Assembly (NCBI GenBank): GCA_016932235.1
Contig: JAFGDF010000085.1
Coordinates: 1-12,689, forward strand
Length of the DNA: 12,689 nucleotides
Direction of reading: 5' to 3'
Source: Deltaproteobacteria bacterium
GTDB taxonomy: Bacteria > Desulfobacterota > DSM-4660 > Desulfatiglandales > HGW-15
The notes under the pieces were generated by a model. The model did not search any database. It saw only the letters and a list, made by a program, of their open reading frames with translations, and was not told the DNA's origin. Positions 1-12,689 of the stretch are shown piece by piece (within the stretch, counting starts at the first letter, position 1; each line of letters starts with the position of its first letter). The translations under genes and the position numbers were made by a program.

Positions 1-34
1 ACAAAAAAAACGCCTAAGCGCGTGCTTGGCGTTT
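1..34 (-). terminator. Hairpin with T-rich tail, probable intrinsic terminator
   Basis: CGCC-AAGC (11-14 and 16-19, with T15 bulged) pairs with GCTTGGCG (24-31) around a GCGT loop. Read on minus, the stem is followed by eight T residues (3-10 on plus). Read on plus, it is followed only by GTTTCTT. The stronger tail is therefore on minus, yet no minus-strand gene lies to its right. It may be bidirectional and end a plus-strand gene left of the window. Confidence 0.5.
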
Positions 35-257
35 CTTGACCTGGTTTATATGCAGACACACGCTAACTACATGCAGGTCCCCCTGCTAAAAAAGAAGAAG
101 CCAAAAAAGCTGAAAGAGAAAGTGTGTGTTTGCATTTTTTTAACCTTTGCGTTAACTTTCACATTATTATTTAAGGTTGTCAAGTTTTTTTTAGACATGA
201 TACTGATTTTTCTATATTATCTTCATTGTGATCCCCCGGCTTGCCTGCCCGTCCATA

Positions 258-301
258 GTCCTGAGTCCTTCGACTTCGCTCAGGACCATGAGTTTGTCGA
301 A
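258..301. repeat. Short interspersed palindrome (TTCGAC type)
   Basis: GTCCTGAG (258-265) and CTCAGGAC (279-286) form a perfect 8 bp stem. A competing pairing joins TTCGAC (269-274) with GTCGAA (296-301). Elements with the core CCTTCGACTTCGCTCAGGA recur between genes in many bacterial genomes, so this is probably one copy of a dispersed non-coding repeat. A partly similar CTTCGACAAGC occurs at 12440-12450. Whether it is repeated in this genome cannot be judged from one window. Confidence 0.55.
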
Positions 302-387
302 TGGCCTGCCGAAGGGACGCCCGTCCTCTGTAGCAGGCTACTGCGTAGGATGGAAAGGCGGGACCGGTGGATCCAGTTCGTAACTTC

Positions 388-454
388 TCCTCCCCTCTTA
401 GGGGAGGATTAAGGTGGGGTCACCTCCTCCCGCCTCCCCCTAAAAGGGGGAGGA
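388..454. repeat. Nested G/C-rich palindrome (REP/MITE-like)
   Basis: The element has three levels of dyad symmetry. TCCTCCCC (388-395) pairs with GGGGAGGA (401-408) over loop TCTTA. CCTCCCCC (433-440) pairs with GGGGGAGG (446-453) over loop TAAAA. The two arms are imperfect inverted copies of each other around a centre where AGGTG (412-416) pairs with CACCT (421-425). This resembles dispersed miniature palindromic elements of intergenic DNA. It ends about 50 bases upstream of the acyl-CoA dehydrogenase start, so it lies in or near that gene's leader. Confidence 0.6.
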
Positions 455-503
455 ATAAAATCGGTGAAGAGCTTCACTTTTAAGAAAACTTCGGAGGGAC
501 AGG

Positions 504-1652
504 ATGTTTGAGCTTACAAAAGAACAGAGGGATATCAAACAGGCGGCCCGAGAATTTGCCGAAAAAGAATTTAAAGATATCGCGCGGGAACTGGATGAAA
601 AAGAACAGTATGATGACACCTTGAGGAAAAAGGCCGCCGAACTTGGTTTCATAGGAGTTTTTATTGATGAGAAATATGGAGGACCGGGGCTGGGCAACCT
701 TGAACAATGTCTTATCAATGAGGAATTCGCCCGTATAGATGGGGGCATCGCCCAGAGTTTGTCGGCGGGCTATTTCGGCTCCAAACTGATACAGCTTTTC
801 GGGACAGAGAAGCAGAAACAGGGATATCTCCCCCGTGTATGCTCGGGACAGCTGCTGGGAGGCATGGCATCCACGGAGCCGGATGCTGGAAGTGATTTAG
901 CCGCAATTTCCACAACCGCCATCAAGGATGGAAATGAATATGCCATTTCGGGGAATAAGATGTTTATCACCAATGCGACTTATGCTGATTTCCTTATAGT
1001 CCTCTGTGTTACAGACCCGGAAAAGCCACGGAAACACGACCGGTTGAGCACAATCATAGTGGAGACTAACAGGCCCGGCTATGAGGCCAATAAGCTGCAT
1101 GGGAAACTCTCTATAAGGTCTTCCGATACCGGAGAAATCGCCTTTAAGGAGGTACGGGTTCCCAGGGAAAACCTGCTCGGGGAAGAAGGGAGGGGATTTT
1201 ATCAGCTTATGGAATTCTTCAACTACTCCCGTCTTGACGGCGGAGGCGCCCTTGCCATAGGAACAGCCCAGGGCGCCCTTGAAAAGGCCATTCGCCATGT
1301 GAAAAACAGAAAGGCCTTTGGCAGTCCCCTCGCCGCGCATCAGATTGTTCAGGCGAAGATCGCGGAAATGGCAACCCTGATCGAAGCGGGGAGGAGCCTT
1401 TTATATCGCGCGGCGATAAAGGTCGATAAAGGAGAGGTTGATCCCGCTTTCGTAGCCATGGCGAAGTGGTATGCCTGTGAGATCGCGGTGAAGGTAGCGG
1501 ACGAGGCTATCCAGCTTCACGGGGGATACGGTATCCTGAAGGAATATGATGTGGAACACTACTGGAGGGACGCAAAGGTATTCGAGATCTTTGAAGGGAC
1601 AAAAGAGATAGAAAAGCTTATTATTGCAAAACAATTATTAAAGCGTTATTGA
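504..1652 (+). CDS. Acyl-CoA dehydrogenase family protein
   Basis: Predicted FAD-dependent cytoplasmic enzyme that oxidises an acyl-CoA to the 2,3-enoyl-CoA and passes electrons to electron-transfer flavoprotein. At 382 residues it has the normal length for the short/medium-chain subfamily. The N-terminal helical domain is followed by the flavin signature MASTEPDAGSD (121-131), the beta domain, and the C-terminal helical domain with signature QLHGGYG (337-343) and FEGTKEI (363-369). Glu364 occupies the catalytic-base position known from MCAD/BCAD. Arg243 is the usual conserved arginine before the C-terminal domain. The start is supported by GGAGGG at 493-498. The metallophosphoesterase follows after 25 bases, so the two may be co-transcribed. 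The substrate cannot be read from the sequence: short-chain, branched, glutaryl-type or cyclic acyl-CoA are all possible. The family call is firm. Confidence 0.95.
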   Translation: MFELTKEQRDIKQAAREFAEKEFKDIARELDEKEQYDDTLRKKAAELGFIGVFIDEKYGGPGLGNLEQCLINEEFARIDGGIAQSLSAGYFGSKLIQLFGTEKQKQGYLPRVCSGQLLGGMASTEPDAGSDLAAISTTAIKDGNEYAISGNKMFITNATYADFLIVLCVTDPEKPRKHDRLSTIIVETNRPGYEANKLHGKLSIRSSDTGEIAFKEVRVPRENLLGEEGRGFYQLMEFFNYSRLDGGGALAIGTAQGALEKAIRHVKNRKAFGSPLAAHQIVQAKIAEMATLIEAGRSLLYRAAIKVDKGEVDPAFVAMAKWYACEIAVKVADEAIQLHGGYGILKEYDVEHYWRDAKVFEIFEGTKEIEKLIIAKQLLKRY

Positions 1653-1677
1653 GCGAATCATCAACAGGGAGGCAATT

Positions 1678-3402
1678 ATGCGGAATTTCTATTCAGTAAA
1701 GAAATTGGCCATCATGATGCTGCTTGTCGCGGCAGTTATCTTCTCAGCGCAGTCCTGCGACGTAGAAACAGAACCATGGTCTTTCGGCGTTATGGGGGAC
1801 ACCCAATGGACGCCGTATAAAATAGTCGACGGCAAATACGTTTCATATGATCCTGGAGGAACAAACCCGAATAACGTTTCCGTTTCCATCATCAGGCAGA
1901 TCCAGCAGGAATTCATAAAAAAGGGCGTCAAGTTCGTTATACAGGTAGGAGACCTGAGTGATGAAGGCAATAATGAGGCCATCGTCACACGCGCGGAGGC
2001 CGCGCAGGAGCTCTACGACGCGGGGATCGGCTTCTTCCCGATGCGCGGCAATCATGAGACATACTATTCGTTCTTCTTTCCAGGAAAAGATAATGGTTTT
2101 TGCGTACCTGTTATGCAGGCCAGCTTTCCCCAGAATCGGGAAGGAAACGATCATAATTGCGACGCATACAACTTCAGCAGCCCGGCCAACGCGGATTTTC
2201 CGAATATGGAAGGCGAGCTGAACGGGCTTTCTTATGCGTTTGATTACGGTGATTACGGCAATAACGCCACATTCGTGATTATCGACCCGTGGGCGACCCC
2301 GACACAGTTAAACGAGGATTTCTTTAATACCCTTCGCGTGTATTACGGCTATACAATAGCATCACAGCAGGGATGGATAAGCAAACGCCTTAATAAGGAT
2401 ACGCGCGGTACTGTCCACGCCTTTGTATTTTCTCATCAGCCTCTTATTGCCGCCAACCATATAGACAGCCCGTTCGGATACCTTGACAGCGCGGTTGACG
2501 ATCAAAATGCATTTTATAAGGATCTTTCGGATAACGATGTGGCATACTATATCTCCGGCCATGACCATATTTACGAGAGAACCGTTGTGGCAAGCCCTGA
2601 CGGCAACTCCAGGGTGGAACAGCTTATCGCGGCCCCTGCCTGTCCAAAATTTTACGGTTCTCTGCCTGATGATAATGAGAGATGGCACGGACAGAAATAT
2701 CGCGCGATCCCGTTGTCTCAGGAAAAAAACAACGTGGGATTCTACATCTATACGGTAAATGGGCCTACTGTCACTGTTGATTATTATTCGGACGTCAACG
2801 GCGATTTCGGGGACACCAACAAATGGCCGGACAAGGTTGTTGATGAAAACGGATATGCAAGCTGCGTTACTCCCGATTTCAATTTTGTCAAAAAGGAAAC
2901 GTGGAGTTTCAGCCTGAACGGCAAAAGCTTCATGGTGCCCCGGGGAGGGGATTATACGGGCGTAACAGACGAATTCGCCGGCACATCCGCCGTAATACTC
3001 GGCGGTGCCAATAACAGCACCGCGGTCAACGACCTCGGAAAATCCTTTGTTAAAAAAGTGAATACAATCTGGGATTTCAACCGGAAATACGACAATCTTC
3101 ACAGCAACATCCTGACACTAACGGGCATGTCCGATTTCAACTCAGCGAAAACCGATACATACGCGCTTTCAATGGGGTGCAATGACAAAATGTCGGGGAA
3201 GGATCCCAAATATTATCTCGCGGCCAGGGATTCCAGCGGCCGTTTCGTTAATGCCGTTGATTTGAACGACGGCGGGATAAAGACGTTCGTGAACGGCCCG
3301 TGGGATGCGTCTTACGGGCTGGGCACATACGGCATTGACAAGGACGCCAACACTGTTTGGGCGGTTGTCAACTTCAACGGAACCTTTGCTGTAAAAAAAT
3401 AG
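1678..3402 (+). CDS. Exported metallophosphoesterase, probable lipoprotein
   Basis: Predicted calcineurin-like metallophosphatase outside the cytoplasm. The N-terminus has a basic stretch, a hydrophobic core (10-22) and Cys27 in AQSC, a weak lipobox. The metallophosphoesterase motifs appear in order: GDTQ with Asp41, GDLSD with Asp92, GNHE (124-127), SHQP with His253, and GHDHIYER with His295 and His297. Two details are unusual: the first motif is D-x-Q rather than D-x-H, and the purple acid phosphatase tyrosine expected after GD is absent, although GHDHIYER resembles that family. The catalytic domain ends near residue 370; residues 400-574 form a domain I do not recognise, possibly a secreted beta-rich domain. 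GGGAGG precedes the ATG, which lies 25 bases after the acyl-CoA dehydrogenase stop. The substrate is unknown (phosphomonoester, nucleotide or phospholipid). Confidence 0.88.
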   Translation: MRNFYSVKKLAIMMLLVAAVIFSAQSCDVETEPWSFGVMGDTQWTPYKIVDGKYVSYDPGGTNPNNVSVSIIRQIQQEFIKKGVKFVIQVGDLSDEGNNEAIVTRAEAAQELYDAGIGFFPMRGNHETYYSFFFPGKDNGFCVPVMQASFPQNREGNDHNCDAYNFSSPANADFPNMEGELNGLSYAFDYGDYGNNATFVIIDPWATPTQLNEDFFNTLRVYYGYTIASQQGWISKRLNKDTRGTVHAFVFSHQPLIAANHIDSPFGYLDSAVDDQNAFYKDLSDNDVAYYISGHDHIYERTVVASPDGNSRVEQLIAAPACPKFYGSLPDDNERWHGQKYRAIPLSQEKNNVGFYIYTVNGPTVTVDYYSDVNGDFGDTNKWPDKVVDENGYASCVTPDFNFVKKETWSFSLNGKSFMVPRGGDYTGVTDEFAGTSAVILGGANNSTAVNDLGKSFVKKVNTIWDFNRKYDNLHSNILTLTGMSDFNSAKTDTYALSMGCNDKMSGKDPKYYLAARDSSGRFVNAVDLNDGGIKTFVNGPWDASYGLGTYGIDKDANTVWAVVNFNGTFAVKK

Positions 3403-3484
3403 TGTGTTTATAAACATCTCAAAAAACATATAGGTTCGGCCTGACTTCAACTCCTCGGATGACAGTGAGCAGTGGATGCCGGGG

Positions 3485-3520
3485 CCGGCATAGCAGGCAA
3501 TACGCCGGATTTCTTTATTT
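3485..3520 (+). terminator. Weak terminator candidate between convergent genes
   Basis: CCGGC (3485-3489) can pair with GCCGG (3504-3508), followed by the T-rich ATTTCTTTATTT. An overlapping alternative pairs ATGCCGG (3476-3482) with CCGGCAT (3485-3491), with too small a loop unless the inner pairs open. The site lies in the 112-base gap between the metallophosphoesterase and the convergent flavoprotein and overlaps the flavoprotein's last bases. Stem and tail are both poor, so this is tentative. Confidence 0.3.
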
Positions 3521-4060
3521 GGCCCTTTTAAGGTTCGCTGCCAGCTTCTTGCCCATATCTTTCGCCTTTTTCACTAATCCCGGTTTGTTTTTAGCGGCAT
3601 CCTGGCCTGTATAGCCGGTAACCACAAGGCAGTTCTCCTCCGGCAGCCCGATGAATCTCTTTAAAGCCTCGATTGTCTCGTCAGCTCCGCCACCTCCGCC
3701 TATGGCAATCAGGCCGGCATACCTGGCCTTTTTATTTCCACCGTGGGTAAAGGTAAAAAAGTTCCTGTCTATAAACGCCTTCATCTGGGCGGAAACATTA
3801 TAGAAATAGACCGGACTAGCCAGAATTATGCCATCGGCATGGTTGTATTTTTTGATGATTCCCGGCGCGTCGTCCTTTATTTTACATACCGTGTATGTCC
3901 CGCACTCTTCGTGCCCCAGGCATGGATTGACCACGCATTCACCCAGAACGATCTTCTCTGTTTCTATGCCCCGCGCAGCCAGTTCTTCAAGCGCTACATC
4001 CGTCAGATAGCTGGTATTCCCCTTGGAATGCGGACTGCCTACAATCGCTATGACCTTCAT
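3515..4060 (-). CDS. Isf-like flavodoxin-fold NAD(P)H/FMN reductase
   Basis: A 181-residue soluble flavodoxin-fold protein of the NADPH-dependent FMN reductase / iron-sulfur flavoprotein group. The FMN phosphate loop is GSPHSKGNT (8-16), the second flavin segment is ASPVYFYNVSAQMKAFIDR (81-99), and a glycine-rich turn sits at 120-125. Between them is the segment that in iron-sulfur flavoproteins carries a compact four-cysteine cluster motif ending in KDD. Here it reads C47-x2-H50-x2-C53-x5-C59, then IKDD, so one expected cysteine is histidine. The protein may hold an altered [4Fe-4S] site or only FMN. The role is probably electron transfer or quinone/oxidant detoxification; partner and substrate are unknown. 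GGAGG precedes the ATG. The gene is convergent with the metallophosphoesterase and divergent from the small membrane protein. Confidence 0.88.
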   Translation of the reverse strand: MKVIAIVGSPHSKGNTSYLTDVALEELAARGIETEKIVLGECVVNPCLGHEECGTYTVCKIKDDAPGIIKKYNHADGIILASPVYFYNVSAQMKAFIDRNFFTFTHGGNKKARYAGLIAIGGGGGADETIEALKRFIGLPEENCLVVTGYTGQDAAKNKPGLVKKAKDMGKKLAANLKRAK

Positions 4061-4084
4061 TGTTTACCTCCGAAACGGTTTTTT

Positions 4085-4093
4085 ATTATAGCA
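4085..4093 (-). promoter_or_regulatory. Extended -10 promoter of the flavoprotein gene
   Basis: On the minus strand the sequence reads TGCTATAAT, a perfect -10 hexamer preceded by the TGn extension. It lies about 25 bases upstream of the flavoprotein ATG. No good -35 box is seen at 17 bases, which is common for extended -10 promoters. This is a pattern match only. Confidence 0.5.
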
Positions 4094-4198
4094 GTTGAAC
4101 TCATAAGAACGTGTTTTTTATAAATAGAGCATAGGAAAATTGCGGTTGTATGTCAAATAATATGTCTCATTGCCTCAGCGTTGCTCCAATCTTTTCTA

Positions 4199-4226
4199 TT
4201 GCTTAAAAATAAGTTTTCAATATAAT
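4199..4226 (+). promoter_or_regulatory. Candidate sigma70 promoter of the small membrane protein
   Basis: A perfect TATAAT (4221-4226) lies 16 bases after TTGCTT (4199-4204), a weak -35. It would give a leader of roughly 95 bases before the GTG start at 4327. The surrounding 4061-4326 gap shows no other gene. Confidence 0.4.
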
Positions 4227-4315
4227 CTCTACCCTAATTCCTGGACTTGCTTTTATTCTGTGAAAAGTCTGCCGCACAAGAATGCGGATCTTATGTTATC
4301 TGATGAATTTTTCTT

Positions 4316-4329
4316 GAGGGAATGCCGTG
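4316..4329 (+). promoter_or_regulatory. Ribosome binding site fixing a GTG start
   Basis: GAGGG (4316-4320) sits six bases before GTG (4327-4329). This selects the frame of the small membrane protein over an overlapping longer frame on the same strand and over the ATG at 4322, which is in a different frame. Confidence 0.55.
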
Positions 4330-4620
4330 GCCAGGCGGGAAAAAGCTATACTATTCGGGTGTATTCATTTCTTCCTGCAGGTATCTGTCTATATCTCTGC
4401 ATTTGCCCTTGGTCCGGCTATTGTGACACGCAGGGTGCTGGGTATCTCTTTGTACGATGTGGCCGTAATTATTACATTTCCGTTTGTGTACCTTTTTGAG
4501 AAATTGCAGTGGTCTGGATTTGGGATTGGGGTCTTTGTCTTAAATAGTGTTGTATGGGCAGGAATCTTCTATCTGGCTCTTGTGGCAATGGCCAGGAAAG
4601 CGACAAAAAGGAACCTCTAA
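4327..4620 (+). CDS. Small integral membrane protein, function unknown
   Basis: I do not recognise this 97-residue protein. It begins with the basic segment MARREK and has a hydrophobic stretch at about 8-30, a second at about 42-57, and a third at about 65-87, ending in the basic tail ARKATKRNL. This suggests three membrane segments with positively charged ends. No cysteine pairs, heme ligands or catalytic motifs are visible. The start is GTG, supported by GAGGG six bases upstream. It converges on the first sulfatase with only 26 bases between stops. It may be a free-standing small membrane protein; nothing in the context assigns a job. That it is a real gene rests on the ribosome site and the coherent membrane pattern. 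Confidence 0.6.
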   Translation: MARREKAILFGCIHFFLQVSVYISAFALGPAIVTRRVLGISLYDVAVIITFPFVYLFEKLQWSGFGIGVFVLNSVVWAGIFYLALVAMARKATKRNL

Positions 4621-4646
4621 AGTCAGCTGTGTTTTAGTTAGAATGG

Positions 4647-6329
4647 TTAATTTTTTCTTTTCGGTGGTGGTCCCATATACTGACTACTATTGCTTTTCGG
4701 GGGATTTGCAAAGAACGATTCCTTGGCGATAACCTCCTGAAGACGACAGAATTGCCACTCCGGGTCGTCCGGGGTCCAGGTGCCATCCTCGTATTTGGTG
4801 CAACTGTCGGGCTTTTCGAGGGGATATTCTTCGAGCGGGTCGTCAACCAGGTTATAGAATACACAACTTTCTGTCTTCGCATTATTATCGCAGATAACTT
4901 TGTATGTTGCGTTCCGTGCTCCGACCTCCATGAGGTTTTTCTTTACGGGATTTATAGTTTCCGAGAGCAGATAATCCGTATTAGGATCGCGAAGGCCCTT
5001 TGCGCCCTTGAAAAGGATCGGGGTGAGAGAGACAGAGTCAAGTTTTACCATGCTGTTGCCTGTCCTGTTGGGAACCGTGCCGGGCACATCAAGACCCGCC
5101 AGCTCCAAGATGGTGGAGAACAGATCCACATTATGTATCCACTCGTCGCTCTGGGAACCAGACTTTATGCCCGGTCCGCGGATCGCCATTGAAACTCGTA
5201 CCCCGCTTTCATAGGCCGTACCCTTGCTGCGGCCTTGCCTGGTGATGTACAGGTTGTCGATGAACTCGCGCTTGGGGCCGAACATCCATGTGCCGTTGTC
5301 GCCAAGGTAGATTACGTACGTGTTCGGATCCAGCTTGTCGACCGTTTCGAGCAACTTGCCGATCATGGTATCCATCGTGTTGGTCATGGCACGCATGAGC
5401 GCCTCTGAGGAGCAGGACCCTACGTTCGCCGAGCCGAATTTTCCGTCAGGGCCGATACATGCTTCCATCTCTTTGCGTGATGCCTCGTCCATAGTGTCGG
5501 CATTGGGAATTACCATCGGATTCGGTTCCTGTTGACCTGTGATATGGCACAGGTTGAACGCAAACCAGACGAACCACGGCTTGTCGGGATTATTCTTTTC
5601 CTGCTCGGTGATCCAGTTGATTGCATCGGCGGTTTTTACTACCGGCGCAAAGGTAGTCGGCGCTATGCCGGGCAGGGACCTGATGGGCGCCTTTTCTGTA
5701 CGGTACTGATCCGGAGGGTCGGTGTCATCCTGGATATGATAGTCGTATTCAAAATATGTGTCGAGACCGCCATGGAGATTGCCCAGGAAGAGATCGAAAC
5801 CTGCCTCTTTTGGCTTCATGCCCGGGTATACACCCAGACCCGCCATGTGCCACTTGCCGAACACCGCTGTGCTGTAGCCGCCTTTTTCTTTAAGGTCCTT
5901 GACAAAGGAGTGGTGGTTTTGGGTCAGATAATTCGTGTAATCCAGCACTCTTGTCTTGGCGGCATAAAGCCCGGTCAGAAGTGATGCGCGTGTGGGAGAG
6001 CAAAATGGTTGTGTCCAGGCATGGGTGAACCTTATGCCCGATTGGGCAAGGGTGTCAAGGTTTGGGGTGGATGCGGGGCGGCCATCGATCAGTTGATAAT
6101 TGGGATGATTATGCCCTGAGGGCCCGTATTGCTTCTTAAGACTGTCGATCAGGCCGGGATACATGTTTGTTGTCACGTCTATGCCGATATCGTCGCCGAT
6201 GATCAGCAGCATGTTTGGGCGTGGAGACTTGACCTGCTTATTAGTCATGAATATGCATCCTACTATAAAAATAAGCACAGCCAGTATGGCAAACCCGCTT
6301 AATGCTTTTATGACGATTCTATTGGCCAT
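4647..6329 (-). CDS. Type I sulfatase (arylsulfatase family), probable lipoprotein
   Basis: Predicted exported sulfate-ester hydrolase of the alkaline phosphatase superfamily, 560 residues. The N-terminus has a hydrophobic segment ending in IVGC, a good lipobox with Cys25, so membrane attachment is likely. Metal and active-site residues are in place: Asp46-Asp47 in GDD, the sulfatase signature CSPTRASLLTG with Cys110 (converted to formylglycine in this family) and Arg114, Lys159 and His161 in GKWH, His262, Asp344-Asn345 in GDNG, and Lys369 in KGTAYESG. Cysteines 291, 306, 480, 489, 509 and 528 match cysteines of the paralogue and probably form disulfides. The C-terminus is proline-rich (542-560). 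AGGAG precedes the ATG. The gene is divergent from its paralogue, with its own strong promoter. The substrate is unknown. No formylglycine-generating enzyme is encoded here. Confidence 0.93.
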   Translation of the reverse strand: MANRIVIKALSGFAILAVLIFIVGCIFMTNKQVKSPRPNMLLIIGDDIGIDVTTNMYPGLIDSLKKQYGPSGHNHPNYQLIDGRPASTPNLDTLAQSGIRFTHAWTQPFCSPTRASLLTGLYAAKTRVLDYTNYLTQNHHSFVKDLKEKGGYSTAVFGKWHMAGLGVYPGMKPKEAGFDLFLGNLHGGLDTYFEYDYHIQDDTDPPDQYRTEKAPIRSLPGIAPTTFAPVVKTADAINWITEQEKNNPDKPWFVWFAFNLCHITGQQEPNPMVIPNADTMDEASRKEMEACIGPDGKFGSANVGSCSSEALMRAMTNTMDTMIGKLLETVDKLDPNTYVIYLGDNGTWMFGPKREFIDNLYITRQGRSKGTAYESGVRVSMAIRGPGIKSGSQSDEWIHNVDLFSTILELAGLDVPGTVPNRTGNSMVKLDSVSLTPILFKGAKGLRDPNTDYLLSETINPVKKNLMEVGARNATYKVICDNNAKTESCVFYNLVDDPLEEYPLEKPDSCTKYEDGTWTPDDPEWQFCRLQEVIAKESFFANPPKSNSSQYMGPPPKRKN

Positions 6330-6358
6330 TGTTTTACTCTCCTTTTTTTTAGGATTTA

Positions 6359-6387
6359 AGTATATGCAGGATAGACTTGTGTGTCAA
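6359..6387 (-). promoter_or_regulatory. Strong sigma70-like promoter of sulfatase 1
   Basis: On minus, a perfect TTGACA (6382-6387 on plus) is followed by exactly 17 bases and TATACT (6359-6364), a five-of-six match to the -10 box. The leader to the ATG at 6329 would be about 20 bases, just enough for the AGGAG ribosome site. Confidence 0.7.
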
Positions 6388-6454
6388 TAATAGAGATTTA
6401 ATGGGCGGTTCCGAAGCAACTTGTCTATATTTAATCAAGCTTGCGGGGAGCATG

Positions 6455-6483
6455 TTGCAAAATGAGGATACCTGCTATATATT
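6455..6483 (+). promoter_or_regulatory. Sigma70-like promoter of the sulfatase-bc operon
   Basis: TTGCAA (6455-6460) is followed by 17 bases and TATATT (6478-6483), a five-of-six -10 match. It would start transcription near 6490, about 28 bases before the sulfatase 2 ATG. With the opposite promoter at 6359-6387, the two -35 regions face each other across about 67 bases, room for a shared regulator site, though no clear operator dyad was found. Confidence 0.55.
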
Positions 6484-6503
6484 ACAGAAGATTAATCCTT
6501 ATC

Positions 6504-6520
6504 AAAAGGAGGTTGTTATG
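6504..6520 (+). promoter_or_regulatory. Ribosome binding site fixing the sulfatase 2 start
   Basis: AAAAGGAGG (6504-6512) lies five bases before ATG (6518-6520). The same frame is open upstream to a TTG at 6377, but that stretch has no ribosome site, overlaps both promoters, and would place about 47 non-signal residues before an ordinary signal peptide. Confidence 0.85.
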
Positions 6521-8164
6521 TTTAAAAAATATTTTTTCAATATAGCAGCAGCCACAATCTTGATGATACTTTTTCTATGCTCAAACCTGTATTCAGCGTC
6601 AGAAGCAAAAAGGACGAATCATGATGCAGCAAAGCGTCCAAACATCCTTTTGATTATCGGCGACGATTTCGGAATGGATGTTACTTCAGATATGTATCCG
6701 GGTCTGATCGATAACCTGAGCAAAAAATACGGGCCTTCCGGGCACAATCATCACGATTACAAGGCGATTAAAGGCTTACAGGCCTCAACCCCCAGACTTG
6801 ATAAGCTGGCCCGTGAGGGAATGGTCTTTTCCAATGTCTGGGCTCATCCTTTCTGTTCACCCACACGAGCCGCTATCCTGACCGGTCTGTTCGGCAAAAA
6901 AACCAAAGTACTTACTTACGCCGATGCTTTATCTCAAAATCACACCTCCTTTGTGCAAAAACTCAAAGATGAAGGCGGTTACAGTACAGGGCTCTTTGGC
7001 AAATGGCACCTGTCCGGAATGCCCGGCCGCAACGGCGAACCCGGTTATCCGGGCGTTAAACCCAAGGAGGCCGGGTTTGATATTTTCAGGGGCAACCTCT
7101 TTGCCGCCATTAACTCCTACTGGGAATACGACTATCAAATCCAGGACAGCGCCACGCCTCCGGATCAATGGCGTACGGAAAAGGCGCCTGTCAGGTCCCT
7201 GCCCGGCATCGCGCCGACCACCTTCGCACCCGTGGTGAAAGTGGCCGACGCCATTGAATGGATTGCCGAGCAGGAAAAGAATAATCCTGACAAGCCCTGG
7301 TTTGCCTGGCTGGCTTATAATCTCTCCCACACCACAATAATGCAACAGCCGAGCGCCATGGCCGTACCCAATGCCGATACCCTGGATAAAAAAAGTCTGG
7401 CTGAAATGAAGGCCTGCGGCGGGCAATTCGGCTCAAACAATCCAGGTTCCTGCAGCGGTGAATCACTGATGCGCGCCATGACTAATGCCATGGACACCAT
7501 CACCGGCAAATTGCTTGATGCGGTAAATAAATTAGATCCCAATACCTACGTCATATACATAAGCGATAACGGCACACCCATGTACGGCAGGCCCGGTCTG
7601 GATTTCATCGATAACATGTATATCACGAGAAAAGGTCGCGGCAAAGGCACAGCCTATGAAAGCGGCGCGCATGTGGCAATGGCGATCAAAGGACCGGGCA
7701 TAAAGAACCAGGCCAAGAGCAATGAATTCGTTCACGCGGCGGACCTTTTTTCCACCGTGCTGGCGCTGGCGGGATTTGATGCGCCCGAACAAGTCAATAA
7801 CAGCGAAGGCAACGGCAAGGTGCCGCTGGACGCAGTTTCACTGACACCCATACTTTTTAGAGACAAGGATAAGGTGCGGGATCCAAATAAAGGCTACGTA
7901 CTCACAGAATCCATAAATCTGATGACCGGAGGCACTCAATATGCAGGAGCGCGCAACGCGAATTTCAAGGTGGCGTGTGAGGGAGGCGCCGAAAAAAGCA
8001 ACTGCCAGTTTTACAATCTGGCGGATGATCCTCTGGAAGAATATCCCCTGGCGAAACCGGATAGCTGCAAGGGGTACAACGATGGCAGCTGGACACCTGA
8101 AGATCCCGAATGGCACTATTGTCGATTGATGGAGGTTGTCAAGGAGTATTCCTATATTAAATAA
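6518..8164 (+). CDS. Type I sulfatase (arylsulfatase family), exported
   Basis: Predicted sulfate-ester hydrolase of 548 residues, a close paralogue of the divergent sulfatase. A Sec signal peptide is visible: MFKKYF, a hydrophobic core (9-22), and probable cleavage near residues 27-29. Active-site residues: Asp49-Asp50 in GDD, PFCSPTRA with Cys113 (formylglycine site) and Arg117, Lys162 and His164 in GKWH, His271, Asp350-Asn351 in DNG, and Lys376 in KGTAYESG. Six cysteines (300, 312, 487, 496, 517, 535) match those of the paralogue. Unlike the paralogue it has no convincing lipobox and lacks the proline-rich tail, so it may be free in the periplasm. Its stop lies two bases before the cytochrome b start, making it the first gene of the bc operon. 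The substrate is unknown; CSPTR can be matured by either FGE or anSME. Confidence 0.94.
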   Translation: MFKKYFFNIAAATILMILFLCSNLYSASEAKRTNHDAAKRPNILLIIGDDFGMDVTSDMYPGLIDNLSKKYGPSGHNHHDYKAIKGLQASTPRLDKLAREGMVFSNVWAHPFCSPTRAAILTGLFGKKTKVLTYADALSQNHTSFVQKLKDEGGYSTGLFGKWHLSGMPGRNGEPGYPGVKPKEAGFDIFRGNLFAAINSYWEYDYQIQDSATPPDQWRTEKAPVRSLPGIAPTTFAPVVKVADAIEWIAEQEKNNPDKPWFAWLAYNLSHTTIMQQPSAMAVPNADTLDKKSLAEMKACGGQFGSNNPGSCSGESLMRAMTNAMDTITGKLLDAVNKLDPNTYVIYISDNGTPMYGRPGLDFIDNMYITRKGRGKGTAYESGAHVAMAIKGPGIKNQAKSNEFVHAADLFSTVLALAGFDAPEQVNNSEGNGKVPLDAVSLTPILFRDKDKVRDPNKGYVLTESINLMTGGTQYAGARNANFKVACEGGAEKSNCQFYNLADDPLEEYPLAKPDSCKGYNDGSWTPEDPEWHYCRLMEVVKEYSYIK

Positions 8165-8166
8165 AG

Positions 8167-9534
8167 GTGATTGGAAAAACAAATTTGCTGCAAAAAATAA
8201 TCTATTCAATTTTTCCCGGTATTTCAGAACAGGATAAAAGCCGGGAAGGATACCGGCATTTTTATAAAAGCCTTATTTTCCACTTCAGGCCGAGGTTGGT
8301 GTACAGAAAAACACTCGACTTTACACTTACCTTCGGTCTGGGAGGAATGGCCTTCGTTCTAATCCTCCTGCTCTTTGGCACAGGCCTTCTCATGAAGTTC
8401 TACTACCTGCCTTTTCCTGATAAGGCTTACGAGTCCATCATTTATCTGAGTAACAATGTGCCGTTTGGTTCCCTTATTCGCAATATTCATTACTGGTCAG
8501 CTAATATGCTAATCATAGTGGTGTTTCTTCATTTTTTACGGGTATTTTTTACTTCTGCCTTTCATCCTCCGCGACAGTTTAACTGGGTAATAGGTCTCGG
8601 CCTGTTTGTAATCATATTACTCTTTAATTTTACCGGCTATCTGCTTCCCTGGGACCAGCTTTCTTTCTGGGCAATTACCATCTGCACAAGTATGATGGAT
8701 TATATCCCGGTGATTGGAAAATGGATGCAGAATATAGTAAGGGGAGGGGCGGATGTAGGTTCACCCACCCTGTCTATTTTTTATGCCGCTCACACGGCGT
8801 TCCTGCCAGCCGCCTTGATAATCATAATGCCCTTCCATTTCTGGCGAGTGCGCAAGGCTGGAGGGCTTGTTATTCCTTTGTCATCGGAAGAAAAGGGTGA
8901 GGACCCCGACATAAGAGTTCCCGCCATACCTGACCTGATATTAAGAGAGATCGTAACAGCACTTGTTTTGATTGCCGTTATTCTTTTTATTTCCATACTG
9001 TTCGACGCACCGCTCGGGAATAAGGCTAATCCGGGACTGAGCCCCAATCCGACCAAGGCGCCCTGGTATTTTATGGGTTTTCAGGAGATCCTTATGCATT
9101 TACACCCCATAATTACCATTTTCGTTATCCCTTTTCTGATGGTTGCCGGTCTGCTAACGATAGCTTATACCCGGTATCCAGCCGGCCGTGAGGGTATATG
9201 GTTTGTCTCTTCAAGAGGCCGCTCTGCAGCCGTTGCTTCTTCTGTCATGGCATTGATCTTGACGCCGATTATTATCATTCTGGATGAATATGTATTTGAT
9301 TTTCCAGCCTGGATGCCCGGGTTTTCACCGGTTGTCAGCAATGGTTTGATTCCCCTTTGTATTGTTATCCTGGGATTTTATGTTCTATATCTGTTTTTTG
9401 TAAAATTTTATTCTCCTGACAAGAATGAAAAGGTGCAGATGGTCTTTGTATTTTTTCTGACAGTGTTCATTATACTTACAATTACAGGCATATGGTTTCG
9501 AGGTAAGGGTATGAAGCTGTTATGGCCTGTTTGA
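8167..9534 (+). CDS. Cytochrome b, fused b6/subunit IV type
   Basis: Membrane subunit of a quinol:cytochrome c oxidoreductase (bc complex), 455 residues, with a b6-like half and a subunit-IV-like half in one chain. Heme ligands are His108 and His122 in helix B and His209 and His224 in helix D; the 15-residue step in helix D is that of b6 rather than mitochondrial cytochrome b. The Qo motif PWDQLSFWA is at 161-169. In the second half, PEWY appears as APWY (298-301), losing the glutamate. The cysteine that binds heme ci in b6 is Gly57 here. Hydrophobic segments continue to about residue 445, giving eight or nine helices. The start is GTG without its own ribosome site, two bases after the sulfatase stop, so translation is probably coupled. 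It is followed by Rieske and octaheme genes, its likely partners. Confidence 0.93.
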   Translation: MIGKTNLLQKIIYSIFPGISEQDKSREGYRHFYKSLIFHFRPRLVYRKTLDFTLTFGLGGMAFVLILLLFGTGLLMKFYYLPFPDKAYESIIYLSNNVPFGSLIRNIHYWSANMLIIVVFLHFLRVFFTSAFHPPRQFNWVIGLGLFVIILLFNFTGYLLPWDQLSFWAITICTSMMDYIPVIGKWMQNIVRGGADVGSPTLSIFYAAHTAFLPAALIIIMPFHFWRVRKAGGLVIPLSSEEKGEDPDIRVPAIPDLILREIVTALVLIAVILFISILFDAPLGNKANPGLSPNPTKAPWYFMGFQEILMHLHPIITIFVIPFLMVAGLLTIAYTRYPAGREGIWFVSSRGRSAAVASSVMALILTPIIIILDEYVFDFPAWMPGFSPVVSNGLIPLCIVILGFYVLYLFFVKFYSPDKNEKVQMVFVFFLTVFIILTITGIWFRGKGMKLLWPV

Positions 9535-9584
9535 TAATCGGAATGCAAGGCCTCGATGAATCGAATAAAATATAGGTAAAGATT

Positions 9585-10094
9585 ATGAAAAAACCCGCCC
9601 CATTTCCCTCACGCAGGTCCTTTCTCACGGTACTCTGGACAGGCCTGGGAATTGCCGCTATCGCTGAATTTATAGCAGTTATTATCTCTTTCCTAAGTCC
9701 CGGTAAAACACGGGAGAAATCCAGTGAGTCCGGTGCAATAATAGAGGCCGGCCACGCTGATAAATTTCCTCTCAATTCAGTGACCGCCAATATTCAGGGA
9801 AGGTTTTACCTGTGCAGGATGGAAGACGGCGGTTTTTTAGCCGTTTCAAGCAAATGCACCCATCTGGGGTGCACAGTTCCATGGATGGATAAAGAGAAAA
9901 GGTTTGCTTGTCCTTGCCACGGATCATCTTTTGATATTACGGGTAATGTGATGAGCCCTCCGGCCTCCAGACCGCTTGATACTTATCTCGTATATATTGA
10001 AAACAATATTGTAAAGGTGGACATCAGCAAAACAATAGAGCGCGAAAAATTCCTTGAGGAGCAGGCTGCCTACACCAAGAAGGTTTCAATATGA
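9585..10094 (+). CDS. Rieske [2Fe-2S] protein of bc complex
   Basis: High-potential electron carrier that takes the first electron from quinol at the Qo site of cytochrome b; 169 residues. The N-terminus has a twin-arginine pattern (Arg10-Arg11 in SRRSFL) before a membrane segment (about 15-38), as expected for a Tat-exported, membrane-anchored Rieske protein folded with its cluster. Box 1 is CTHLGC (91-96) with ligands Cys91 and His93; box 2 is CPCHGSSF (109-116) with ligands Cys109 and His112. Cys96 and Cys111 are placed to form the conserved disulfide. The gene starts 50 bases after cytochrome b with a weak AGGTAA site, and its stop overlaps the next start (ATGA at 10091-10094). Family and role are firm. 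Confidence 0.95.
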   Translation: MKKPAPFPSRRSFLTVLWTGLGIAAIAEFIAVIISFLSPGKTREKSSESGAIIEAGHADKFPLNSVTANIQGRFYLCRMEDGGFLAVSSKCTHLGCTVPWMDKEKRFACPCHGSSFDITGNVMSPPASRPLDTYLVYIENNIVKVDISKTIEREKFLEEQAAYTKKVSI

Positions 10095-12394
10095 GAAGGT
10101 GGAAAATTACAGGTTTTTGCGCCACCATTTTAATTATCCTGTCTATTCCGCTTTACATGTTAAAGACGTCCTATTTAACTCCCTTTCCGAACGATAATCA
10201 ATCAGAGGTGAAATATAATTTTGTGGGCAGTCTGAAATGTGCGGACTGCCACAGAAAAGAGTATGACAAATGGCAGAATTCTCATCATGACCATGCCATG
10301 GACATCGCCAATGATAAGACTGTCCTGGGCGATTTCAATAATGTCCTGTTCAAGAGCCATGGTGTGACGTCACGGTTTTTCAAAAAAAATGGCAGGTTTT
10401 TTGTCCATACACAGGGACCCAGCGGCCAGATGAAGGATTATGAGATCACCTATACCTTTGGCTGGCATCCACTTCAACAATACCTTGTTCCCTTTGAAGG
10501 AGGCCGCCTGCAATGTCTGCCGATTGCCTGGGATGACCGCGAAAAAAAGTGGTATGATCTCTATCCGGATGATCCTATCGATCCGGCTGACTGGCTTTAC
10601 TGGACGAACGCGGGTCAAAACTGGAATGGCATGTGCGCCGAGTGTCATTCCACAAATCTTAAAAAGAATTATGACTTAAAGAGTGATTCATATAAAACTA
10701 GATGGACCGATATTGATGTGGGTTGCGAGGCCTGCCATGGCCCAGGATCGGGGCATGTGGAATGGGCTGAGACGCCGGATATGGGCCGGCCTGCTGTCAA
10801 TAATTATAATCTTATAGTCAGGACATCAGGAATCGTTTCCCGGGAACTGGTAAATATTTGCGCTCCATGCCACAGCAGGCGTGCCATACTCGGCGATTAT
10901 ACCCACGCGGAGCCGAACCTTCTGGACAGCATGCTGCCCAGTTTTCTCACTCCGGAGTTATATTTTTCCGACGGTCAAATCCTGCAGGAAGTGTATGTTT
11001 ACGGCTCCTTTATCCAGAGCAAGATGTATCACCGGGATGTGCGCTGCAGCGACTGTCATGACAGCCACAGCGTTAAACCGTTCAAAGAAGGCAATGACCT
11101 GTGCCTGCAATGTCACAAGTCCGGAGAATATGACACTGTGGAGCACCATTTTCACAAAAGGAAAGGAGAAAATGGAGAACCTATTAAATCCAATGACGGG
11201 AAAATCCTGTTCGATGTAGGCGCAGGGGCTGAGTGTGTCCAGTGTCATATGCCCGGTCGCAACTATATGGTGATTGACTACCGGCCCGATCACAGTTTTA
11301 GAATTCCCAGGCCTGCCCTTAGTGATAAAATAAATGTCCCAAATGCATGTAACAGATGCCATATTGATAAAACGATCCGGTGGTCTGATGAGTGGATAAC
11401 CAAATGGTACGGTCCGGGACGAACTCGCCATTACGGGATGATCATAGATGCAGGCCGTAAACATAAACCTGAAGCCTATAGTGATCTTATTAAACTGGCC
11501 ATGGACTCTCTTTATCCGGTTAACGTCCGCGCTACTGCCTTGTCCATTTTAAGCTCGTATCCAGGCAAGGAAACCTTAAGGGCCTTTGAGCTTTCTTTAA
11601 TGGACAATGAAGCGCTAATACGGCGGACAGCGATTGAGAATCTTAATCTTCAGGATGTGAAAGAAAAGGTGCGACTTATTTCCCCGCTTCTTCTTGATCC
11701 TGTAAAGGCCGTGAGAATAGAGGCGGCGTTCAAACTGGCGGGCGAACCATCAGATCTTCTTGATGACAAACAACAAATGGTGTTTCAAGGAGCGCTTAAA
11801 GAATTTATTGCCTCGATGGAATACTCCGGAGACTTTGCCTTTGGCAGATTTAACCTCGGGAATCTCTATTCAGCCCTTGATGAAACACAGGAATCTATAT
11901 CACATTACAAGGCTGCCATAAAAATAGATCATCTTTTTTATCCCGCCAAAGTTAATCTCGCTATGCTTTATAACAGCCTGGGAGATAATGAACAGGCGGA
12001 AAAACTCTTTCGCCAGGTAATAGAAGAAAATACTGAATTATACGAAATATATTATTCTCTTGGATTGCTGCTTGCGGAAAAAAAGGAATATGAAGAAGCT
12101 GCGGCGTTTATGGAAAAGGCAGCTCTAAATATGCCTGAATCAGCCAGGTTTCATTATAATTACGGATTATTGCTGCAATTTTTAAAAAGAGATAGTGAGG
12201 CTGAAGTTGAATTATGTAAAGCGCTTTCATTGGAACCTGAAAATATGGATTTTCTTTATGCCCTTGCCGATTATTATCTGAAAAAATTGAATTATAAAAA
12301 GGCAAGAGAGTTTGCTGAGATCATGGTTAAGGTAGACCCCGATCAGCCTGTGGGGCATGATCTTTTAAATATCATATTGAAGAATCAGCAATAA
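10091..12394 (+). CDS. Octaheme c-type cytochrome with HEAT-like and TPR repeats
   Basis: A 767-residue periplasmic multiheme cytochrome anchored by one N-terminal hydrophobic segment (about 7-23). Eight CxxCH heme sites begin at Cys50, 182, 212, 257, 319, 338, 382 and 420. The first region, CADCH with following Trp61, His65 and His66, and the segment GCEACHGPGSGH (211-222) match the cytochrome c554-like/octaheme family. After the hemes come HEAT-like helical repeats (about 460-555) and about five TPR units (about 580-760), usually protein-binding. The ATG overlaps the Rieske stop, so translation is probably coupled. No cytochrome c1 or f gene is present, and this protein is the obvious electron acceptor from the Rieske centre. 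Its downstream partner is unknown. Alternatives are a catalytic multiheme reductase or a scaffold for a larger respiratory assembly. Confidence 0.92.
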   Translation: MRRWKITGFCATILIILSIPLYMLKTSYLTPFPNDNQSEVKYNFVGSLKCADCHRKEYDKWQNSHHDHAMDIANDKTVLGDFNNVLFKSHGVTSRFFKKNGRFFVHTQGPSGQMKDYEITYTFGWHPLQQYLVPFEGGRLQCLPIAWDDREKKWYDLYPDDPIDPADWLYWTNAGQNWNGMCAECHSTNLKKNYDLKSDSYKTRWTDIDVGCEACHGPGSGHVEWAETPDMGRPAVNNYNLIVRTSGIVSRELVNICAPCHSRRAILGDYTHAEPNLLDSMLPSFLTPELYFSDGQILQEVYVYGSFIQSKMYHRDVRCSDCHDSHSVKPFKEGNDLCLQCHKSGEYDTVEHHFHKRKGENGEPIKSNDGKILFDVGAGAECVQCHMPGRNYMVIDYRPDHSFRIPRPALSDKINVPNACNRCHIDKTIRWSDEWITKWYGPGRTRHYGMIIDAGRKHKPEAYSDLIKLAMDSLYPVNVRATALSILSSYPGKETLRAFELSLMDNEALIRRTAIENLNLQDVKEKVRLISPLLLDPVKAVRIEAAFKLAGEPSDLLDDKQQMVFQGALKEFIASMEYSGDFAFGRFNLGNLYSALDETQESISHYKAAIKIDHLFYPAKVNLAMLYNSLGDNEQAEKLFRQVIEENTELYEIYYSLGLLLAEKKEYEEAAAFMEKAALNMPESARFHYNYGLLLQFLKRDSEAEVELCKALSLEPENMDFLYALADYYLKKLNYKKAREFAEIMVKVDPDQPVGHDLLNIILKNQQ

Positions 12395-12462
12395 TAAATT
12401 TGCGCATTCAACCACGAGCACCGCAAAAAATGACGGGATCTTCGACAAGCACGTGGTCTTCC

Positions 12463-12520
12463 CTGTCTGGACGCGAGGCCGGTGCGAAGGCGGATAAAAA
12501 CCCGTCAGACAGATTTTTGT
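12463..12520 (+). terminator. Probable terminator of the bc operon
   Basis: CTGTCTG (12463-12469) pairs with CAGACAG (12506-12512), extended by ACG (12471-12473) with CGT (12503-12505) across one bulged G. The stem is followed by ATTTTTGTTT. The 29-base loop is long for an intrinsic terminator. A competing stem pairs TGACGGG (12431-12437) with CCCGTCA (12501-12507), sharing the right arm. Confidence 0.45.
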
Positions 12521-12550
12521 TTGACAAACATTAAGCGAGAGATTAAAAAT
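12521..12550 (+). promoter_or_regulatory. Candidate promoter of dsrA
   Basis: A perfect TTGACA (12521-12526) is followed after 17 bases by TAAAAA (12544-12549) or after 18 by AAAAAT, each a four-of-six -10 match. It would leave a leader of about 65 bases before dsrA. The -35 box lies directly against the T run of the upstream terminator, so dsrA can be transcribed on its own. Confidence 0.5.
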
Positions 12551-12621
12551 CTTTTCGTTAGTGAGTATAAGTGAAAATTGGGTCTGGGACGGCGAATTCT
12601 AAATATGAGGAGGCAGGAATA

Positions 12622-12689
12622 ATGTCAAAACATAAAACACCTTTATTGGACGAATTAGAAAAAGGTCCTTGGCCAAGCTTTGTAACGGA
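12622..12689 (+). CDS. dsrA: Dissimilatory sulfite reductase alpha subunit, 5' end only
   Basis: Only the first 22 codons are inside the window; the gene runs off the right edge. GAGGAGG (12607-12613) lies eight bases before the ATG. The residues SKHKTPLLDEL followed by EKGPWPSFVT match the conserved N-terminus of DsrA; from memory, Desulfovibrio DsrA starts with AKHATPKLDQL and ESGPWPSFVS. In DsrAB this siroheme and iron-sulfur enzyme reduces sulfite in the cytoplasm, delivering sulfur to DsrC, with electrons from DsrMKJOP; in sulfur oxidisers it runs in reverse. The fragment is too short to tell the reductive from the oxidative type. dsrB would be expected just outside the window. It follows the bc operon with its own promoter. 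Confidence 0.82.
   Translation, partial: MSKHKTPLLDELEKGPWPSFVT

Follow-up and report, generated by a model that had tools for sequence, protein, structure and literature searches.

Sulfatase genes as recurrent neighbors of a Rieske/cytochrome b-octaheme cytochrome gene cluster

A sulfatase where none was expected

Why should a gene for a sulfatase sit two bases ahead of the genes for a quinol-oxidizing complex? The question is raised by a stretch of 12,689 nucleotides, referred to throughout as the window, which is contig JAFGDF010000085.1 (positions 1 to 12,689, forward strand) of GenBank assembly GCA_016932235.1, from a deltaproteobacterium of the phylum Desulfobacterota (Desulfatiglandales; HGW-15). 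The sulfatase gene, here called sulfB, runs into genes for a cytochrome b, a Rieske iron-sulfur protein and an octaheme cytochrome, and the beginning of dsrA lies just beyond. A first-pass annotation read this as one operon, tying release of sulfate from esters to sulfate respiration. The surprise, as we now see it, is not the window's tidy operon. It is that several groups of sulfatase recur beside the complex in other genomes. The features at the center of the problem are these:

6506..6512, + strand: ribosome-binding site of sulfB, AAGGAGG (by eye)
6518..8164, + strand: sulfB, exported sulfatase, 548 residues; Pfam Sulfatase 137 bits; CSPTR at residue 113
8167..9534, + strand: cytochrome b, 455 residues, with a b6-type N-terminal part and a subunit-IV-like part; Pfam Cytochrome_B 154 bits
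9585..10094, + strand: Rieske iron-sulfur protein, 169 residues; Pfam Rieske 46.8 bits; twin-arginine start (by eye)
10091..12394, + strand: octaheme c-type cytochrome with C-terminal helical repeats and TPR, 767 residues; eight CXXCH motifs; Pfam C554, Cytochrome_C7 and TPR

The four open reading frames (ORFs) lie where the first-pass annotation had placed them, with a gap of 2 bases between sulfB and cytochrome b, a gap of 50 between cytochrome b and Rieske, and an overlap of 4 between Rieske and octaheme genes. Their identities are borne out by Pfam and by the heme motifs, and export of the sulfatase by a Sec-type N terminus on sulfB (by eye). The start of cytochrome b is ambiguous. The GTG at 8167 has an AAGGAG only 20 bases 5' of it, and an alternative in-frame TTG lies at 8185, after AAAGGTGAT (by eye), so the gap behind sulfB may be 2 or 20 bases. 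The promoter and terminator that had been drawn at the two ends of the operon were not confirmed. The promoter-like site ahead of sulfB (6455-6483) scores 9 of 12, and 12 such sites were found where shuffled sequences give 12.2. Behind the octaheme gene, our scan listed no terminator-like site; a hairpin predicted at 12504-12525 has no T-run behind it (z -1.8 for the whole stretch).

Sulfatases recur around octaheme loci

Scanning genome contigs with a profile of the octaheme protein gave 402 confirmed loci, and the best 80 of these, all from other genomes, form the set described here (loci carry the letter L, genomes the letter G). The cytochrome b-Rieske-octaheme core recurs among them; all three genes pass a strict filter in 57 of the 80, many contigs being cut. 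Twenty of the loci contain 22 sulfatase ORFs between them, every one from a subfamily other than that of the window. It is the 25 loci with full flanks, which are all such loci among the 80 and which we took as a fair set, that carry the argument. Ten of them have a sulfatase, against 0.63 expected from PF00884 matches counted genome-wide in 37 genomes (genome sizes rounded), an enrichment of about 16-fold with an exact P of 8e-11. Within 5 kb of the core, the figures are 9 of 25 against 0.38 (P 3e-11). An earlier estimate over the 37 genomes, 16 observed against 0.86 expected, was set aside because some of its short contigs had been picked knowing that a sulfatase was present. A sulfatase beside this quinol-oxidizing complex, which had struck the first-pass annotation as out of place, is thus no accident of one contig, and the linkage is well supported.

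In Desulfoluna spongiiphila AA1 (L075), 158 bases separate the octaheme gene from the sulfatase gene. Twenty of the 22 flanking sulfatases lie no more than 5 kb from the core and 20 of 22 lie downstream of the octaheme gene, the two others being upstream (L007) and between the Rieske and octaheme genes (L056). These positions do not support a sulfatase at the head of the operon as the general case, and neither do L113 and L114, introduced below, where it lies on the other strand; and when the gene order of the window was searched for, a sulfatase leading into cytochrome b on the same strand was seen only in the window. With the window's own sulfatase counted, clustering at 45%, 40% and 35% identity gives six, five and three groups of sulfatases. 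As one group accounts for 15 of these 20 loci, a single old linkage may underlie much of the signal.

What else gathers around the core? We clustered the ORFs of the 80 loci together with L112 to L118 (87 in all), and sulfatases proved the commonest neighbor outside the core. A family of small proteins came next, in 15 of 87, and every other family appeared in 6 or fewer. In some genomes the sulfatase at the locus is the only strong candidate. Four of the 37 genomes have a single PF00884 match at E 1e-15, and in three of these, ETH-SRB2 (L004), the L031 genome and Desulfosarcina alkanivorans PL12 (L056), that match falls inside the octaheme locus, contigs having been paired by their coordinates; the locus of the fourth genome (L066) yielded no sulfatase. 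The D. alkanivorans gene lies between Rieske and octaheme genes on the opposite strand (L056, 3541-12310), splitting the cluster.

The small proteins have an N-terminal hydrophobic stretch and a conserved domain, GxWxRPDGGY...YFNPRPINV...GYPGSTY. Their genes adjoin cytochrome b, the octaheme gene or the sulfatase in most of their loci (L007, L008, L015, L019, L021, L022, L024, L026, L028, L049, L050, L051, L053, L067 and L074). The L028 member had no Pfam match and the L021 member no NCBIfam match; matches occur in 27 of 49 genomes, and on contig C253 of G208 some 300 bases lie between one such gene and a sulfatase. Five loci (L004, L013, L026, L048 and L074) also have a regulator family near the operon, the one member scanned, from L074, being a sigma-54 activator with a PAS domain.

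The complex

Units built of a Rieske protein, a cytochrome b and a multiheme c subunit oxidize quinol and hand the electrons to periplasmic acceptors. The window's cytochrome b is a single chain whose b6-like first part matches a PDB cytochrome b6 at E 1.9e-48. Its translation contains HYWSANMLIIVVFLH and HTAFLPAALIIIMPFH, which we take to be the two His pairs, and KAPWYF, whose APWY we read as a Qo-site motif of the PxWY type. Both NCBIfam models that it resembles score below cut-off: ExtP at 280.8 bits (cut-off 290) and ExtQ at 38.2 (cut-off 150). The Rieske protein has CTHLGC and CPCHGS, presumably both cluster-binding boxes of such proteins. The octaheme-TPR protein has at least 7982 relatives. 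In the comparison with octaheme oxidoreductases of the HAO, Otr and MccA type, positions 316-466 of its profile match chain 6i5b_A and positions 173-223 the multiheme cytochrome 6qvm_A; in its structure model most of the heme region has a predicted local distance difference test (pLDDT) score below 50.

The window's own sulfatases

The first-pass annotation had left out a second sulfatase gene, which lies divergently to sulfB:

4647..6329, - strand: sulfA, second sulfatase, 560 residues; Pfam Sulfatase 135 bits; CSPTR at residue 110; IVGC lipobox-like N terminus (by eye)

The two proteins are 60% identical. In a sulfatase tree, sulfA forms a clade apart from sulfB (support 100/99), and window sulfB groups with 16 others (100/100), those of L113 and L114 included. 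Both score far above the curated Pfam cut-off of 25 bits and have the C-x-P-x-R motif. Ten candidate catalytic residues of sulfB are invariant in a 22-row alignment (D49, D50, C113, R117, K162, H164, H271, D350, N351 and K376), and by analogy with arylsulfatase A we presume them to be metal and substrate ligands. Domain, motif and alignment place sulfA and sulfB as predicted formylglycine-type (S1) sulfatases. The structure model of sulfB has the sulfatase fold (mean pLDDT 82). Carrageenan and other carbohydrate sulfatases are its best fold matches, with human arylsulfatases also present; among the 50 matches listed identity is 15-22%, too low for the substrate of sulfB to be named. Viral contigs offered only sulfatases of 23-36% identity, and these were not used.

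Further off, a metallophosphatase (1678-3402) with a lipobox-like start (by eye) and no NCBIfam match lies directly behind an acyl-CoA dehydrogenase (504-1652). The eight window proteins that we scanned include no glycoside hydrolase, lyase, SusCD-like gene or transporter, and with no glycan genes among them we rejected a polysaccharide utilization locus.

A rare subfamily that keeps the same company

Sulfatases of the window's subfamily are absent from the 80 loci and scarce elsewhere. Profile searches for sulfB drew a blank in a set of 12 genomes and in the class of G001 (389 genomes); the phylum of G001 gave 3 carriers among 395 genomes and the class of G637 gave 4 among 85. In the scans of 389 and 395 genomes, up to three candidates were scored per genome. 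Where it does occur, it is often close to an octaheme-TPR gene. In G595 and G637 (L113 and L114), a relative of sulfB lies directly before cytochrome b-Rieske-octaheme on the opposite strand. In G426 (L112), the neighbor of sulfB is a second kind of octaheme-TPR protein, which shares 27% identity with that of the window, and a sulfA-type frame follows after 10 bases. The phylum of G845, a genome whose record is labelled Thermoanaerobaculales and which we take to belong to the Acidobacteriota, has sulfB-type sulfatases in 6 of 297 genomes, at three places by the second octaheme family: directly adjacent in L138 and one ORF away in L137 and in L136, where a sulfA gene takes the other side of the second octaheme gene. 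With the window counted and one partial match (G961:C275) excluded, sulfB is beside an octaheme-TPR gene, or one gene from it, at 7 of 11 places. Of the other four, two are not adjacent (G970 and G1028) and two are on contigs too short to tell (4.6 and 3.4 kb).

Members of this second octaheme family (L112 and L136 to L138) are about 27% identical to the window's protein and 70-78% identical to the one in L112, and no cytochrome b or Rieske gene was found beside them. Their flanks hold both sulfB and sulfA in L136 (5737-12884) and L112 (14090-18934), and sulfB in L137 and L138. In the phylum of G845, the family occurs in 14 of 396 genomes (two candidates scored per genome). The class of G637 has the window's type of octaheme gene in 12 of 85 genomes, on contigs of which several measure only 3.7-5.5 kb, and a sulfatase within about 10 kb in four (G595, G637, G802 and G820). 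Among the 120 matches listed, we also noticed by eye eight sulfatase and eight octaheme proteins on contigs of equal size, from 9,005 bases up. This suggests further linked pairs; the three contigs of at least 4 Mb say little.

How do these sulfatases become active?

Anaerobes usually activate sulfatases of this kind with a radical-SAM maturase. Excerpts of one paper name anSME and FGE as maturases (PMC6388578). The anSME model, TIGR03942, finds a match in 8 of 23 genomes with octaheme-linked or sulfB-type sulfatases, seven of them over the cut-off, and the other 15 have no anaerobic sulfatase maturase that we could recognize. At E 1e-30, there is no match in D. alkanivorans, both Desulfoluna, ETH-SRB2, G841, G595 or G637; metagenome-assembled genomes may be incomplete, though the D. 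alkanivorans genome is complete by the title of its record. PF03781 matches occur in 13 of 16 genomes. The FGE cysteine pair, searched for with the pattern presumed for true FGE, was recognized in none of the 30 PF03781 places examined (of 46, in 16 genomes); six chance matches to the pattern were not FGE-like. Seven genomes (G001, G005, G006, G007, G595, G637 and G841) combine cysteine-type sulfatases with no TIGR03942 match at E 1e-30 and no recognized FGE pair. The cysteine to be modified is present: 20 of the 22 flanking sulfatases have CTAGR, CSPTR, CSPSR, CTPTR or CTPSR, and the remaining two are fragments at contig ends. Either an unrecognized maturase exists or some of the linked sulfatases work without formylglycine.

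Could the octaheme cytochrome itself be the anaerobic maturation partner? Its TPR would bind sulfatases in the periplasm and its hemes would accept the electrons from oxidation of cysteine to formylglycine, in place of the radical-SAM maturase. This would explain the octaheme gene as the sulfatase's partner with or without cytochrome b and Rieske. We think it very improbable; the eight genomes with a maturase match count against it, and they include all four that combine sulfB with the second octaheme family (G426, G961, G1122 and G1044).

The neighboring dsrA

dsrA had been taken into the same unit, and its presence just downstream is certain enough:

12622..12689, + strand: dsrA, of which the window includes only the start; phmmer match to DsrA 3or1_A

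Of the 22 residues encoded here, 1-21 align on residues 1-21 of that solved chain at E 4e-8. The gene starts 227 bases after the octaheme stop. A ribosome site of its own precedes it (by eye), as does a promoter-like site (12521-12550, 10 of 12) of a kind expected by chance. A motif search for dsrA-like starts, with the window as positive control, found none in 221 loci, so the supposed tie to dsrA is not conserved, and as far as we have seen this neighborhood is particular to the window. With that distance, the separate ribosome site and its absence as a neighbor elsewhere, membership of the bc-octaheme unit in a dsr operon was rejected.

What the linkage might mean

From the genes, the enrichment and the intact sulfatase sites we infer a recurrent periplasmic module in which formylglycine-type sulfatases are paired with a quinol oxidase of the Rieske/cytochrome b-octaheme kind, the two probably being regulated together when sulfate or acceptor is limiting. 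We give this tentative reading a probability of roughly 0.4. Cytochrome b, Rieske and octaheme-TPR proteins would assemble into a quinol oxidase, the octaheme protein taking the role of cytochrome c1 or f, and menaquinol would give up its electrons to an acceptor in the periplasm or outside the cell. One or more exported sulfatases would be kept beside the complex, co-regulation being the most likely reason. When free sulfate or another acceptor ran short, the cell would at once release sulfate from its esters in the periplasm and give its quinol electrons another way out, and in the sulfate reducer of the window the freed sulfate could feed the Dsr pathway, which is how the module might be coupled to sulfate respiration. 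The window would then represent the form that such a recurrent module takes in one lineage.

A good deal weighs against this. No sulfatase lies in the stretch examined of 60 of the 80 loci (many contigs are short) or in 15 of the 25 with full flanks. The P values treat loci as independent and ignore kinship; merging the two Desulfoluna loci (L072 and L075) and L057 with L058 leaves 8 of 23. The sulfB subfamily is rare, as the counts above attest, and of the 14 genomes with the second octaheme family in the phylum of G845, only 3 have sulfB by it; the stretches examined in the remaining 11, some only 3-5 kb long, showed no sulfatase akin to our seven queries, and G970 and G1028 have both genes apart. 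Orientation and order of the sulfatase vary among loci, so one shared transcript is not the rule. The absence of dsrA from other loci belongs here, as does linkage outside the Desulfobacterota: the record of L078 is labelled Calditrichaceae and that of L040, a fragment where a contig ends, Xanthomonadales, and the phylum of G845 shows linkage to the second octaheme family. Sulfate respiration cannot therefore be the whole reason.

That spread would suit a catabolic unit, in which the sulfatase strips organic sulfate (aryl, sterol or glycan) for the sake of the carbon, oxidation of the product feeds electrons by way of the quinone pool into the bc-octaheme complex as their exit, and sulfate is a by-product. 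The carbohydrate sulfatases among the best fold matches, for all their low identity, point the same way, as do the acyl-CoA dehydrogenase in the window and the sulfatases that excerpts of PMC5615132 place near cytochromes and carbohydrate genes in Verrucomicrobia. But the eight window proteins scanned include no glycoside hydrolase or transporter, and beyond the core, the sulfatases and one small protein, no family reaches more than 6 of 87 loci; we regard the catabolic reading as possible, if on balance unlikely. The same narrowness of company tells against a neighborhood without function, a hot spot that gains accessory genes, sulfatases among them, with the tight spacing in the window due to chance. 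A hot spot would accommodate the varying order and strand, the different sulfatase groups filling the place and the 2-base same-strand junction seen only in the window, but it sits badly with the three genomes whose single strong sulfatase match falls here, and we consider it unlikely. Improbable, in our judgment, is a fourth reading, in which the sulfatase-fold proteins work on behalf of the cytochrome system and have nothing to do with sulfate supply; they might, for instance, modify a lipid, a glycan or a quinone sulfate on the cell surface. Linkage to octaheme-TPR genes persists where no cytochrome b or Rieske is seen beside them, as this would predict, and the 15 of 23 carriers with no recognized anaerobic maturase fit it too, but the window's family keeps its candidate catalytic residues, several sulfatase groups are used and the remaining carriers do have a maturase match.

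For the module that we favor, the statistical signature and the cultivated carriers, Desulfoluna and D. alkanivorans, make the link between sulfatases and respiration testable. The apparent lack of a maturase in many carriers raises a second question, of how, or whether, these sulfatases become active.

Comparison with known systems

The linkage hints at an undescribed tie of sulfate scavenging to respiration. In the excerpts of open-licence PMC literature available to us, we recognized no report of a sulfatase beside cytochrome b-Rieske-octaheme genes, nor of a respiratory gene set tied to sulfatases. Two papers mention sulfatases and octaheme proteins, though apart (PMC8528874 and PMC7887784), and the terms Rieske, cytochrome b and sulfatase are all absent from a paper on the sulfate-reducing partners of methane oxidizers (PMC10553843). 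The ingredients of the idea have precedents. Excerpts of PMC6129605 propose sulfatases as a source of sulfate for respiration in uncultivated Desulfatiglans-related sulfate reducers, and cite an estimate that, in some marine sediments, as much as half of the sulfate reduction may run on organic sulfur; a term search of its main text found no mention of Rieske or cytochrome b, which sets that proposal apart from ours. Sulfur for respiration is also listed among the uses of sulfatases in the available part of PMC5573963.

That sulfatases do not normally sit with electron-transfer genes, as the first-pass annotation held, is too strong. According to excerpts of PMC5615132, sulfatases in Verrucomicrobia neighbor planctomycete-specific cytochrome c genes, much as the window's sulfatase neighbors its own. 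The cytochromes there are different, however, the excerpts describe no link to cytochrome b or Rieske, and the organisms are saccharide-degrading lake bacteria.

On the respiratory side, the best NCBIfam matches of the window cytochrome b, below cut-off, are ExtP and ExtQ of selenite/tellurite reduction operons, from which it differs in being one chain. Similar in architecture are two clusters of Kuenenia (Kustd1480-1485 and Kuste4569-4574), which, as excerpts of PMC12954380 describe, likewise combine a b6-like cytochrome b, a subunit-IV-like part and a Rieske protein, with a hexa- or octaheme cytochrome c replacing cytochrome f. In Caldithrix, Cabys_2557-2558, a Rieske/cytochrome b pair adjoins an octaheme gene just as in the window (excerpts of PMC5317091). 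The window differs from both: the proteins scanned include neither an NAD(P) oxidoreductase nor Nap proteins, the octaheme cytochrome has TPR repeats, and a sulfatase adjoins the complex.

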